Positions 1,312 to 23,128 of a stretch of DNA of 36,338 bases are shown here, in pieces (the stretch's first letter is position 1; the number at the start of each line of letters is the position of its first letter). Under the pieces are notes generated by a model. The model was given only the letters and a program-made list of their open reading frames with translations, was not told the DNA's origin and made no database searches. Made by a program: the position numbers and the translations under genes. This DNA is from Candidatus Gastranaerophilales bacterium (GTDB lineage: Bacteria; Cyanobacteriota; Vampirovibrionia; Gastranaerophilales; Gastranaerophilaceae), in assembly GCA_944323405.1 (NCBI GenBank), contig CALUSJ010000160.1:1-36338 (forward strand), read 5' to 3'.

Positions 1312-2244
1312 TCAAACAGATTTCATTGCAATATTATACAAAACTCGTTTTCTTATAGATATAGGGAGAATTTTTAATTCTATATTCTTATCAATCAAAC
1401 TCATTGAATTATGAACCGCAACACTTTCTTTTTCCATAGGTAAACAACTATTTACCCTGGAATTGTTACACAACCCAGAGATTATTAAATCTAAGTCATC
1501 CTCATTTGATACAGGCTTTTTCAACATAATATTATCCACAAAACTCTTATCTACTACCGTCACACTATGACCATTTAATGTGTATTCAGTATTCAAATAC
1601 CCAGTACACGTAAAATGATTTGTTATTATAATCTTATTTTCCATTTTATCAGTTATTGTATAAGATAGCAACTCATTTTTATTACTTATACCGCTTACAA
1701 AAATTGTTTGATTTTCATCTGAATATTCCGTAACACGGTTAAGAACATCATAACCGTAACTCTGATTTAGAATTAAATCTTTATTTAAATATATCTTACG
1801 GCTTATAATTCTATCAATACTATCATATTCATAAGCTGCTAATACTTCATTATTTAAACATTTTCGACATATACTATTTGTACGGTTCAAAGCATCATAG
1901 CCATAATGATACTCATATACACAACTTCCATCCTTTTTGTATAAATACTTTGAACAGACTTTATTTGCTTCATAAAATTCTCGACAAGTTAATCTATCAT
2001 TCCTATAATAGTTAATCGATTCAATATTATCACCATTAAAAAATACCTGCTTATACAACTCATTATCGACATTATAAAACCCCGCAGATACAAGCCTTCC
2101 CCTAGCATCTCGGTTTAATACAGCTTGAGACGATATTGTAAAAAGTCCATTCTCTTTATCTTCACAATTGATTACCGTATCTAAGATTTTTTTATATGAA
2201 ATTAATTCCTGAGGTATTGATTCTTTTGAAAACGAATTAACCAT
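1312..2244 (-). CDS. Small cytoplasmic YD-repeat (RHS-like) protein
   Basis: This 310-residue protein has three clear YD-type repeats in its middle: YGYDALNR, YEYDSIDR and YGYDVLNR. Further degenerate copies lie upstream (for example LNRDARGRLVSAGFY). YD repeats form the beta-cocoon shell of RHS and teneurin proteins. This protein is far shorter than RHS toxins. It has no signal peptide, no PxxxxDPxG-type core-end motif and no recognisable toxin domain, so it is probably a cytoplasmic repeat protein and not a secreted effector; that last point is inference. The ATG at 2244 is preceded by GGAG at a spacing of about 7 nt. It is read from the unusual promoter at 2282-2338 and lies directly downstream of the RpaA-like regulator gene on the same strand. 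Confidence 0.75.
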   Translation of the reverse strand: MVNSFSKESIPQELISYKKILDTVINCEDKENGLFTISSQAVLNRDARGRLVSAGFYNVDNELYKQVFFNGDNIESINYYRNDRLTCREFYEANKVCSKYLYKKDGSCVYEYHYGYDALNRTNSICRKCLNNEVLAAYEYDSIDRIISRKIYLNKDLILNQSYGYDVLNRVTEYSDENQTIFVSGISNKNELLSYTITDKMENKIIITNHFTCTGYLNTEYTLNGHSVTVVDKSFVDNIMLKKPVSNEDDLDLIISGLCNNSRVNSCLPMEKESVAVHNSMSLIDKNIELKILPISIRKRVLYNIAMKSV

Positions 2245-2281
2245 AGAAGATTCTCCATACTTAATTTATTAAATATCTCCT

Positions 2282-2338
2282 CATGTATATAAAGTATATA
2301 TTAAGTATAGAATTGCGTTTTTTTGCTAAATCTTTACA
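2282..2338 (-). promoter_or_regulatory. Shared-architecture promoter (GTAA box plus TACTTTATATA box)
   Basis: Read on the minus strand, a TGTAAA box (2333-2338, TTTACA on the plus strand) is followed 40 bp later by ATACTTTATATACATG (2282-2297). A GCAATT block lies between them. The same order and spacing occur upstream of the 50-residue gene (7012-7072) and in the gyrA-decarboxylase gap (22923-22982), and shifted by one base upstream of the gene at 19059. No usual TTGACA-type -35 box is present, which suggests activator-dependent transcription. Confidence 0.5.
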
Positions 2339-2341
2339 AAA

Positions 2342-3037
2342 CTAAATATTTAATTTATAACCGCCGCCATAGATTGTTTCTATATATTTTTTGCCATCAG
2401 AAATTTTATCTATTTTACTTCTCAAATGCCTTATATGGACTCTTATAGTTTCAACATTATCGTCCGGCTCATACCCCCAGATTTCTTTCAGAAGCCTTGC
2501 GCCTGAAACCATATTACCGTGGTTTTGGAATAACAAATTAAATATATCAAACTCAATCGGAGTTAGCTTTTGGATTTTGTCATTAATCTGAACACTATAT
2601 GTTTCAGGTAAAAGCGTAATTTCTTTATATGTTAAAAGTTCCCTGACCGCAGAAGTTTTAGGAATCTGTTTTGTTCTTTTTAAAAGAGCACGCACTCTTA
2701 CAATAAGTTCATCGATTTCAAACGGCTTTGTAAGATAATCATCAACCCCGAGATTAAAACCGTTTACCTTGTCATTAAGTTCAGAAAGCGCTGTCAGCAT
2801 AATTATTGGAGTTTCAGCTATTTCAGGGCATTGGCGGATTCTCTGCGCAACCGTAAAACCATCAACTTCCGGCATCATGACATCGAGAATAATAAGCGAC
2901 GGCTCCTCCTGTTTTGCAAGCGCAAACCCTTCTATTCCGTTGAATGCCTGTATTACCTCATGCCCTTGAAGCTCAAGATTTATTTTAATCAGTTCATTAA
3001 TAGCCTTATCATCATCAACTACAAGTATTTTAGCCAT
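2342..3037 (-). CDS. RpaA-like OmpR/PhoB-family response regulator
   Basis: This 231-residue two-domain regulator has an N-terminal receiver with acidic pair D8/D9, phospho-acceptor D52 (LDVMMPEVDGFT), T82 and K104, all conserved. It is followed by a winged-helix DNA-binding domain ending WGYEPDDNVETIRVHIRHLR and YGGGYKL. By memory, the receiver (VDGFTVAQR, DKVNGFNLGVDDYLTKPF) and the winged-helix segment resemble cyanobacterial RpaA, the circadian/energy output regulator, more than RpaB or PhoB; this was not confirmed by a tree. No histidine kinase is adjacent. The start lies inside the end of rmuC (8 bp overlap), so the two are translated from one message. Confidence 0.85.
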   Translation of the reverse strand: MAKILVVDDDKAINELIKINLELQGHEVIQAFNGIEGFALAKQEEPSLIILDVMMPEVDGFTVAQRIRQCPEIAETPIIMLTALSELNDKVNGFNLGVDDYLTKPFEIDELIVRVRALLKRTKQIPKTSAVRELLTYKEITLLPETYSVQINDKIQKLTPIEFDIFNLLFQNHGNMVSGARLLKEIWGYEPDDNVETIRVHIRHLRSKIDKISDGKKYIETIYGGGYKLNI

Positions 3038-5099: not shown

Positions 5100-6839
5100 A
5101 TGTTTTTGAGTTCTTATAAAAAATTCTTTTCTTATTTTCAGAAAAATAAAAAATTTTTAAAATTATACTCATATCTATCTTTCATAGTAGGAGCCATTGA
5201 GCTTTTTGGGATTGCACTTACTTATCCCTTTGTTTTAAAGCTTCTTTCCCAACAACCATCCGAAAATATTCTTAACTCTCCTATAATAATCGGGCTAGGT
5301 ATTATTCTTTTATTTCTAGCTAAAAACATTTTAATGATATATTACACATACCTTCAAGCAAAATTCACAAAAGCTGTCGAAGCAGAAGTAAATCTTAGTT
5401 TTATGCGCTATTTCCTTGCAACACCGTATATGACGGGGATGAAAATTCCTCTTGCACAAAAAAGCAATATACTAAACTTTCTGATACCAAATGTTATTAA
5501 TAATTTTGTTCTAAGACTTCTAAACCTAAGAGTTAACTTTTTTATTTTTTGCTTAATTGCACTATTCTTAATAATAAAATTCCCTTTAGCCACAATCTTG
5601 ACTATTATTAGTTCCGTTGTATTAATATATATTCAAAACATCTTTTTTAAACCACGGCTGCGACAAAACGCCGAAAAAATGACAAAAACAAGCTTTATAT
5701 ATACGCAAAGAACAAATGAAGCAATTTTAGACATTAAAGCCGTTAAAATTTCTAACCACGAAATCTTTTTCTATAATAACTATAAATCTGCCATATTGAA
5801 TTATTATAAGACAGGAATTGAAACATTGTTCTTAAATACAATTCCACCGTACGTAACAGAGCCTTTTATTATAATTCTACTATTTATTCTCCTAAGCATA
5901 ATCTCTTGTCAAAGCTATAGTGAACCTGACAAGTTAATTGCATCATTTGCGGTTATTGTATCTGCAATATTTAGACTAGCCCCAACTATTTCCAGGCTAC
6001 AAGTTAATTTAAACGGAATAAACTCTTCTCTTCCAATTGTAGAAGAACTTTTAAAAATCTGCGAAAGTTTAGATATAAATAATACTAAAAAACTTGTTAA
6101 TAAAGAATTTACCCCGCTAAAATCTTCTATCGAGCTTAGAAATATTAATTTTGAATACGAAACTCATAAACCTGTTTTAAGAAATATTAATCTTACCATA
6201 AAAAAAGGGGAGTTTATAGGAATTGCAGGCCTCTCAGGAGCTGGAAAGTCGACTCTTGCTGATATTATTGCAGGACTATTAATACCCACAAGCGGTGAAA
6301 TACTAATCGACGGAGCAGTTAGTGAAAATCCTTTAAAAATTGGCTACATTCCTCAAGAATTCAACATTTTAAATGAATCAATAAAGAAAAATGTTATTTT
6401 CGGCTCTTCTTATGAAAACGATGATTTGGTCATTGATGCCCTAAAAAAAGCCCAATTATACGAATTTATTATTAATAATTACAAAGATGGAATAAACGCC
6501 AATCCTTTTGTAGATTCAACAGGTTTCTCACAAGGTCAAAAACAACGACTCGCAATTGCAAGAGCAATATACTCAAATCCAGATATTTTAATTCTTGATG
6601 AAGCAACTTCTTCACTAGATTTGAAAACAGAAAATGAATTTTGTAATGTCCTTAATAGTTTAAAAGGTGAAAAAACAATTATTGCAATAGCTCATAGACT
6701 ATCCACAATTAAATCCGCAGATAGAATTGCTTTTATGAAAGATGCCACAATAACAGATATAGCAGCTTTTGATGAACTCTACCAAAGAAGCGATGATTTC
6801 AGAGAGCTTATAAAGTTAGCTTCTATTAAATCCTCCTGA
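5100..6839 (+). CDS. MsbA-type ABC exporter (fused permease and ATPase)
   Basis: This 579-residue half-transporter has membrane helices in residues 1-320 and an ATPase domain after residue 340. The ATPase shows Walker A GLSGAGKST (near 380), the Q-loop in IPQEFNIL, signature GFSQGQKQR (near 475; the usual SGGQ reads SQGQ), Walker B ILILDEATSSLD (near 500) and the switch histidine in AIAHRLST. It should work as a homodimer, exporting a lipid, lipid-linked sugar or drug across the inner membrane. The substrate is not evident, although lipid-A or oligosaccharide flippases have this layout. The mRNA appears leaderless. The 3' end overlaps the convergent 50-residue gene by 14 bp. Confidence 0.9.
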   Translation: MFLSSYKKFFSYFQKNKKFLKLYSYLSFIVGAIELFGIALTYPFVLKLLSQQPSENILNSPIIIGLGIILLFLAKNILMIYYTYLQAKFTKAVEAEVNLSFMRYFLATPYMTGMKIPLAQKSNILNFLIPNVINNFVLRLLNLRVNFFIFCLIALFLIIKFPLATILTIISSVVLIYIQNIFFKPRLRQNAEKMTKTSFIYTQRTNEAILDIKAVKISNHEIFFYNNYKSAILNYYKTGIETLFLNTIPPYVTEPFIIILLFILLSIISCQSYSEPDKLIASFAVIVSAIFRLAPTISRLQVNLNGINSSLPIVEELLKICESLDINNTKKLVNKEFTPLKSSIELRNINFEYETHKPVLRNINLTIKKGEFIGIAGLSGAGKSTLADIIAGLLIPTSGEILIDGAVSENPLKIGYIPQEFNILNESIKKNVIFGSSYENDDLVIDALKKAQLYEFIINNYKDGINANPFVDSTGFSQGQKQRLAIARAIYSNPDILILDEATSSLDLKTENEFCNVLNSLKGEKTIIAIAHRLSTIKSADRIAFMKDATITDIAAFDELYQRSDDFRELIKLASIKSS

Positions 6840-6978
6840 CTTTTTCCATAAGTTTAGAAACCTGCTCTTTAAAATCACTATCTACAGGACTTGTAACATA
6901 TCCTGCAATACGTGCCTGCTCTTCCCTTTTTTCCAAATTCTTTTCTAACAAAGCCAATTTTCTCAATGCAATTGTCAT
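6826..6978 (-). CDS. 50-residue charged protein, function unknown
   Basis: A longer reading frame is open up to 7101, but the ATG at 6978 has a strong GAGGAGG 5 nt upstream, and the longer form would overlap the glyoxalase gene. I therefore choose 6978. The 50-residue product is helical and charged: an N-terminal KLALLEKNLEKREEQARIAGY segment that could form a coiled coil, then a linker, then EQVSKLMEKVRRI. It has no membrane segment. It is transcribed from the shared-architecture promoter at 7012-7072 and overlaps the convergent ABC-transporter gene by 14 bp at the stops. Confidence 0.75.
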   Translation of the reverse strand: MTIALRKLALLEKNLEKREEQARIAGYVTSPVDSDFKEQVSKLMEKVRRI

Positions 6979-7011
6979 AAAAACCTCCTCAGATACCTTA
7001 TCCGTTTTAAT

Positions 7012-7074
7012 CTTACATATATATAAAGTATTTTTTTTAGTGAAAATTGACCTTTTGTTAAGAAATGTTACATA
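7012..7074 (-). promoter_or_regulatory. Shared-architecture promoter with HLR1-like box
   Basis: On the plus strand, GTTAAGAA and GTTACATA (7057-7074) form a 10-bp-period direct repeat like the HLR1 element; the second half is perfect and the first matches 6 of 8. Forty base pairs downstream on the minus strand is ATACTTTATATATATGTAAG (7012-7031). Over 60 bp this region closely resembles 22923-22982, including a central CAATTTT block at the same offset. Confidence 0.55.
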
Positions 7075-19058: not shown

Positions 19059-19961
19059 TTATTTATTTTTTATAGAATCAATACCCGGGCCTATATACTT
19101 TCCAATCAAAACTTCTTCTACAAAATAATCTATAGGTTTTATTGCAAGTCCAAGAGCTACAAATCCACCAAGCGTTTTTAAAAAATCACCTTTCATCATT
19201 TTTTGCTTTTGAAATTTACTTAAAACATTTTTTATTGCAACATTCTCGGTTTGTCCGTATTTTAAATTCTTTATATATTCGGAATACCATTTTGACGCTT
19301 TAAATTCTGTTGAAGGGTTTAAAATATCTTTTCGAAGCTTTATTAAATCTTCTATTGTTCTTTCTGTATATTTTGAAATGCTGGACTTTTTATCCGTTTT
19401 AAACACTCTAAATATGTTTTGATATGATTTCTTCTTATCTTTATAATCCATAGAATCAGAAACAATATTTAAAAATTCTTTTGTACACTCATTATCTCTA
19501 CCATGAAAAGCATGCATTTTACCGTTTGCAATAAATTGCTCTGCAAGCTTTGAAATATGCTCCTTAGAATTAAGACTTATTTTGTCAGCGCCTAATTTCC
19601 CAAATTGCGAAAATACATTTTGTCCGAGTTTTACAGCAATAAGCGGCAGAAAAATACTTGCCATCCCCTGAAAAACTGCCTGTTTTAAACATCTTCTTGA
19701 ATCTGGACTATATTCATTTTTATCATTTTTATACTTATCATAAATATCAGCACCAATATATAAAAGTGCCGGTATCCAACTTAAAGTAGCATAATTTCCT
19801 ATAACAGGCCTTAAAGCTTCTCCGACTTCATTTGTAAATGCAGCACCTCTTAGGGGCCACCTCATAAGAGGATCTTTATATTCACCCGTCGTTTTATCTA
19901 TCGTACGATTATCCGCCTTAAAACTTTTTTGTTTTTGTGATACTGCATCTAGAGTTAACAA
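19059..19961 (-). CDS. Lineage-type protein of unknown function with membrane-active C-terminus
   Basis: About 300 residues. The N-terminal part has MRWPLRGAAFTNEVGEALRP, then NYATLSWIPALLYIGADIYDKYKND with a hydrophobic segment. A second hydrophobic segment (QGMASIFLPLIAVKLGQ) follows, then a charged helical middle and a third hydrophobic stretch (LGGFVALGLAIKPIDYFVEE) near the end. I do not know a named family. Start choice: GGAGG precedes TTG at 19961 by 6 nt, whereas the GTG at 19967 is too close to it, so TTG at 19961 is preferred. It is transcribed from the promoter with the perfect HLR1-like box (19985-20043). The GT83 gene follows after 51 bp. Confidence 0.75.
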   Translation of the reverse strand: MLTLDAVSQKQKSFKADNRTIDKTTGEYKDPLMRWPLRGAAFTNEVGEALRPVIGNYATLSWIPALLYIGADIYDKYKNDKNEYSPDSRRCLKQAVFQGMASIFLPLIAVKLGQNVFSQFGKLGADKISLNSKEHISKLAEQFIANGKMHAFHGRDNECTKEFLNIVSDSMDYKDKKKSYQNIFRVFKTDKKSSISKYTERTIEDLIKLRKDILNPSTEFKASKWYSEYIKNLKYGQTENVAIKNVLSKFQKQKMMKGDFLKTLGGFVALGLAIKPIDYFVEEVLIGKYIGPGIDSIKNK

Positions 19962-19984
19962 AACCACCCTCCATATTGTGTCTG

Positions 19985-20043
19985 ATGTGTATATAACGTA
20001 TGAAAAAAATATTTTTTTTGTTTTATTTACAAAATTTTACAAA
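19985..20043 (-). promoter_or_regulatory. Shared-architecture promoter with a perfect HLR1-type box
   Basis: On the plus strand 20026-20043 reads TTTACA-AA-AT-TTTACA-AA. This is an exact match to the HLR1 consensus, two (G/T)TTACA(T/A)(T/A) repeats separated by 2 nt, bound by RpaB in cyanobacteria. Downstream on the minus strand is ATACGTTATATACACAT (19985-20001), the same TATATA box found at three other places, with spacing differing by one base. Confidence 0.6.
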
Positions 20044-22854: not shown

Positions 22855-22922
22855 GCAAGATATTATATAAAAATATTTTATATATACTTCTTAAATCCTT
22901 ATTTAATAAGTCTTTAAGGAGT

Positions 22923-22982
22923 GTAACATTTTTTTAAAAATAGGCAATTTTTTAAAACAAGATAACTTTATATATATGTAAG
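22923..22982 (+). promoter_or_regulatory. Shared-architecture promoter of an intergenic transcript
   Basis: GTAACATTT begins at 22923, GGCAATTTT at 22943, and TAACTTTATATATATGTAAG spans 22963-22982. This is the same order and exact spacing as at 7071-7012 on the other strand, with the last 17 bases identical. It points towards the decarboxylase gene and is followed by a terminator, not by a gene. Confidence 0.5.
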
Positions 22983-22984
22983 GG

Positions 22985-23128
22985 AAAAATGAAGAAAGTA
23001 AAAAGTTAGAAAAGCAATATAGATTAAATTTTAAATCGTAGTTTGTAACAAATATTACCCAATAAATATTCTCTCTTAATATCCTCGTGTTTATTTAATG
23101 TTTGCCATTTGCGGCAAACTTTTTTTTT
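22985..23128 (+). ncRNA. Candidate small RNA or leader transcript of about 145 nt
   Basis: The segment begins just after the 22923-22982 promoter and ends at an intrinsic terminator (23100-23128). The only translatable frame with a possible ribosome-binding site is six codons, MKKVKS, at 22989-23009, after AAGGG. The downstream decarboxylase gene has its own promoter after the terminator, so this looks like an independent small RNA and not its leader. Confidence 0.4.
23100..23128 (+). terminator. Intrinsic terminator in the gyrA-decarboxylase gap
   Basis: GTTTGCC (23100-23106) and GGCAAAC (23113-23119) pair perfectly around a 6-nt loop and are followed by nine T residues. The end of the T-tract runs into the -35 box of the next promoter. 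Confidence 0.85.

Follow-up and report, generated by a model that had tools for sequence, protein, structure and literature searches.

The order Gastranaerophilales has a dedicated promoter class, in which a rigid core is preceded, just 5', by a box resembling the HLR1 element. The core class is well supported, including its lineage distribution and one of its products, a small RNA. Three of its sites lie in the window, the 36,338-nucleotide stretch of DNA that was analysed here. Control by the OmpR-type regulator RpaB is the most likely reading, based on the match of the binding site and the presence of the gene. The earlier note on this DNA had suggested a regulon of uncharacterised genes, and this idea is supported: the class extends genome-wide and family-wide, has a separate activator-type box, and feeds small RNAs, short proteins and unknown proteins. 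A literature search on Gastranaerophilales promoters, sigma factors and small RNAs found no relevant report.

The same note had described one layout at four places, 22923-22982 (+), 7071-7012 (-), 2337-2282 (-) and 20040-19985 (-), and the four strings are indeed present there. Sites 1 to 3 also share the proposed register, with GTAA, CAATT at +22 and the A/T box at +41; site 1 (22923+) has AAC where the pattern has TAC. The GTAA register is partly accidental, however, since GTAA is a left half-site in sites 1 and 2, whereas in site 3 it is a right half-site, and the box has the opposite orientation. Site 4 (20040-) lacks G(C/A)AATT and is thus not a full member. It reaches a score of 1.6 with the matrix described below, retains no element of the layout other than the upstream box and a weak A/T box, and is to be dropped from the core class. 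The elements at the four sites are as follows.

22921-22938, plus strand: weak HLR1-like box of site 1, GTGTAACATTTTTTTAAA (sequence and motif discovery)
22938-22985, plus strand: core promoter of site 1, GGCAATT (22943-22949) to ACTTTATATATATG (matrix score 43.7; match of model R1)
7056-7073, minus strand: HLR1-like box of site 2, ATGTAACATTTCTTAACA (sequence and motif discovery)
7009-7056, minus strand: core promoter of site 2, GTCAATT to TACTTTATATATATG (matrix score 46.6)
6826-6978, minus strand: 50-residue protein 3' of site 2; its longer frame has no Pfam match
2331-2348, minus strand: HLR1-like box of site 3, TATTTAGTTTTGTAAAGA, overlapping the rpaA stop codon and kept across the genus
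2275-2322, minus strand: core promoter of site 3, CGCAATT to TACTTTATATACATG (matrix score 42.8)
1312-2244, minus strand: YD-repeat-like protein of 310 residues 3' of site 3, without Pfam match
2342-3037, minus strand: RpaA ortholog, the rival candidate for binding the box (267 bits to Synechococcus RpaA 9dvt_R against 146 to the next chain)
20026-20043, minus strand: perfect HLR1-type box of site 4 (consensus match), with a core lacking G(C/A)AATT

Aligned sites from the genome have the layout G(C/A)AATT, 14 nt, TACTTTATATATA, followed by TGTAAG. A search of the 1.76-Mb draft genome for the A/T box by itself (TACKTTATATAYA) gives 23 occurrences, and for the backward pattern 2. Wherever the A/T box was aligned, G(C/A)AATT ends exactly 14 nt 5' of TACTTTATATATA, with the exception of site 4 and L002. 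The latter was rejected as a class member, as it lies inside a gene, lacks G(C/A)AATT and represents a chance match to the A/T box. A 48-column matrix was trained on 22 sites, including sites 1 to 3; within the window it matches these three only, and its reversed form finds nothing above a score of 5. Model R1, which uses sequence only, has 39 matches in the genome at E<=0.001; relaxing the threshold to E<=0.05 raises the number to 47, about twice the 22 training sites.

Not one of the 47 matrix sites falls clearly within a gene in the stretches fetched around the matches. This covers part of the check proposed in the earlier note, namely whether matches occur equally often inside genes, and they are not spread in this way. 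In 36 of the 47 sites an ATG lies no more than 60 nt from matrix column 30, and it is usually accompanied by a ribosome-binding site. Most of the ~47 genome sites lie shortly 5' of a start codon or of a short transcript that ends in a terminator, and at least five precede short transcripts with intrinsic terminators (22923 in the window, L062, L008, L012 and L007). For L007, flagellin was considered as a direct target and rejected: a ~80-nt transcript with its own terminator intervenes, so this promoter makes a small RNA, although read-through into flagellin is possible.

In a phylum-wide draw, the class was present in 95 of 95 family genomes from 22 genera, and absent from the three genomes that belong to another order of the same taxonomic class, as well as from all other Cyanobacteria drawn. 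R1 matches range from 23 to 64 per genome in the same genus and from 0 to 10 in other families of the order. The named close relatives are metagenome-assembled genomes of Gastranaerophilales / Melainabacteria, many of them from ruminant and other animal guts. In one relative (L131, G073:C1) two class sites lie roughly in tandem. One of these precedes a 62-residue, ribbon-helix-helix-like protein that resembles the L011/L035 target of the window's genome.

The small RNA that the earlier note had proposed downstream of site 1 is supported by conservation and covariation. Its parts are:

22980-23128, plus strand: predicted small RNA of ~150 nt with an inferred start, driven by the 22923 site
23070-23102, plus strand: near-invariant 33-nt core
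23100-23119, plus strand: terminator hairpin
23120-23128, plus strand: T run

A model of its 3' part finds this RNA in 57 of 60 family genomes and 39 of 41 genera, with one to four copies each, and the 33-nt core is nearly invariant across the 39 genera. L062 is a paralog in the same genome, and a homolog in G019 carries an identical 33-nt block. The same promoter stands 5' of the small RNA in most genomes with a homolog. In the terminator stem, 43 cells are changed on both sides, compared to 17 in shuffles; the pairing is lost when the partners are slid against each other. The alignment used for covariation was fitted to the model; the three-sequence alignment behind the model agrees with it. 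Rfam gave no match at gathering score for the RNA at 22980-23128. Nor does the core of this RNA show enriched pairing with regulon gene starts (mean longest match 5.8, against 5.5 for other genes).

In relatives, the same promoter precedes small RNAs of at least two more families, both C/U-rich. A second family consists of ACACACTAACCTT...CACACGAGAATC or similar, followed by a terminator (L008, L012, L097, L113, L119, L120, L122-L125 and L132). Several genomes have two copies of it, and the neighbouring genes vary. A third, C/U-rich family contains CTAACCTTCCCTTCCTA, then a hairpin and a T run. It occurs in other genera and families of the order (L114, L116, L117, L118, L121, L085 and L108), twice in tandem in L121. 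Among the protein targets, ten were scanned and none reached a Pfam cut-off; judged by eye alone, others are a lysozyme/LysM-like protein, a ribbon-helix-helix protein and some short proteins of coiled-coil type. Many regulon proteins (L049, L063, L065, L066, L072, L077 and L080) have N-terminal stretches rich in Gly, Tyr, Asn and Met without an obvious signal peptide, and those that were scanned have no significant Pfam domain.

Motif discovery in the DNA 5' of the core returned an 18-mer near TRTWAAGNTTTGTAACAA, in both orientations. Written as a repeat, it reads TGTAAM-N4-TGTAAM with a period of 10. This is HLR1 in reverse complement; HLR1 is the target element of RpaB and has the consensus KTTACAWW-N2-KTTACAWW (PMC9241938, PMC13421787). 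Boxes were scored with this published consensus and not with the motif derived here. At least 14 of the 16 positions agree in 37 of 47 sites, compared to 1.6 in dinucleotide shuffles, and in 16 of 22 sites of relatives, compared to 1.0 in shuffles. Control regions upstream of other genes reach this level in 8 of 89 cases. L070, L047 and L061 are among the few sites that lack a good box, and in some sites, such as site 1, the match is degenerate.

Far less variation is seen in the core than in the box. In 66 of 82 cases the distance between box and core is 3-7 or 13-17 nt, which gives two preferred positions ~10 nt, or roughly one helical turn, apart. A helical period beyond these two positions is unsupported, as the circular statistic peaks broadly at 11-13. 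In Synechocystis, HLR1 activates from about -45 to -66 (PMC13421787). If transcription starts 6-9 nt past TATATA, as assumed here, the box distance is close to this range. The box of site 4 sits upstream of an unknown protein at 19059-19967, and here the same regulator possibly acts on another type of promoter.

Two OmpR-type regulators were found in the 80%-complete genome, RpaB (L111) and the RpaA ortholog beside site 3. RpaB matches the equivalog NF045944 with 357.1 bits, compared to a cut-off of 330, and its recognition helix, DTRVVDVHISRLR, is identical to that of photosynthetic RpaB. The RpaA helix reads NVETIRVHIRHLR here and is strongly unlike it. RpaB is present in 23 of the 24 genomes examined, G026 being the exception. 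It is also encoded in sister-order and photosynthetic genomes without the core class, and therefore RpaB cannot explain the core. Homologs of RpaA, RpaB and NblS have been described in the non-photosynthetic Melainabacteria and were judged likely to serve another function (Di Rienzi et al. 2013, PMC3787301).

Taken together, we propose a dedicated class in which the core is read by RNA polymerase and the HLR1-like box is bound by an activating RpaB, with small RNAs and orphan proteins as the regulon (probability about 0.6). RNA polymerase would recognise G(C/A)AATT - 14 nt - TACTTTATATATA, and the sigma factor involved may be an order-specific one of the group-2 type. RpaB would bind the direct repeat just 5' of the core and activate transcription; relative to the expected start, the repeat would lie at about -43 to -60 or at about -53 to -70. 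The output in the genus would be ~25-60 units per genome, comprising several small RNAs and many short or orphan proteins. From the sequence data we infer the start sites, binding and activation by RpaB, the sigma factor and the purpose of the regulon.

Within the same class, the box may instead be bound by RpaA, or by RpaA and RpaB in competition. The main argument for this comes from G026, which lacks RpaB yet keeps the promoters with a good box and has an RpaA ortholog (61% identical). RpaA is also the only other OmpR-type regulator found in the genome of the window. A class site directly 3' of rpaA is kept across the genus, lying ~23 nt past the stop codon in 16 loci out of the closest 21 while the spacers have diverged, and in Synechococcus RpaA and RpaB have common target promoters (PMC13421787). 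However, the box fits the RpaB element, the recognition helix of RpaA is strongly different, and RpaB is nearly universal in the lineage. We therefore consider binding by RpaA unlikely, while ranking it first among the alternatives.

Next in rank, and also improbable, is recognition of the entire layout by an alternative sigma factor, in which case the box would be an UP-like element or belong to another DNA-binding protein. The greater rigidity of the core is in line with this, as is the distribution of two group-2-type sigma factors, L025 and L027, which are, like the core class, nearly confined to the order. Each has exceptions, however, and neither tracks the motif exactly: an L027 ortholog is missing from G024, which has motifs, and G029 has both types without a motif. 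In addition, an independently published consensus in 37 of 47 sites, in both orientations and at two positions, would not be expected for an UP element. Among the rest of the eight sigma factors (L024-L031), a SigF-like protein (L028) occurs throughout the taxonomic class and L031 is of the FliA type; to our knowledge, the core is unlike any FliA, SigF, ECF or sigma-54 consensus. In G196 (L113, G196:C2), a class small RNA promoter (107945) lies ~370 nt from the start of a divergent L027-type gene (106715-107575). Chance similarity among intergenic sequences could be suspected in an A/T-rich genome, with TATATA as part of the pattern. It is refuted for sites 1 to 3, the A/T box of site 4 aside, and we give it next to no weight, given the excess of the A/T box over its backward pattern, the absence of the class outside the order even from A/T-rich sister-order genomes, and the fact that many genera retain the same site 3' of rpaA and 5' of the small RNA.

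The proposed RpaB-activated class resembles several known systems. With alternative sigma factor regulons it shares a rigid two-block core common to many unlinked genes, and lineage-restricted sigma factors are present. OmpR-family regulators of the WalR/PhoP type act on repeated TGTAA or TTAACA half-sites with a period of 11 bp. Regulator type and repeated half-sites are alike here, but the period is 10 bp and the two OmpR-type regulators of the genome are RpaB and RpaA.

The closest parallels are to the RpaB/HLR1 regulon of photosynthetic Cyanobacteria. Common to both are the 18-bp direct repeat KTTACAWW-N2-KTTACAWW or its complement, here predicted to lie near the activating distance, an RpaB ortholog with the same recognition helix, and small RNAs among the targets, as PsrR1 is RpaB-controlled in photosynthetic Cyanobacteria. 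In contrast, the box here is joined to the rigid G(C/A)AATT-N14-TACTTTATATATA, which is absent from the photosynthetic genomes searched, its second half-site is often degenerate (TATTAAG), and both orientations are in use. The targets are orphan proteins and new small RNAs; no photosynthesis or high-light genes were found among those inspected. With such targets, and in a lineage without photosynthesis (PMC3787301), we do not file the class as the same regulon, although the same regulator is likely used.

The class thus offers a readable promoter type for a whole order of gut bacteria, together with a small RNA family that spans 39 genera and is absent from Rfam. It is also a concrete candidate for an RpaB regulon in non-photosynthetic Melainabacteria. 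Control by RpaB, if true, would give a role to a protein that had been noted in these organisms without explanation (PMC3787301), and it hints at a task for a cyanobacterial light-response regulator in an organism unable to use light. More tentatively, and at less than even odds, control of small RNAs through RpaB and HLR1 may predate oxygenic photosynthesis. A master regulon of conserved small RNAs and orphan small proteins would then be governed, in the gut Gastranaerophilales, by RpaB together with RpaA and by a lineage-specific sigma factor, and in that reading the photosynthetic role of the RpaB/HLR1 system would be a later recruitment.
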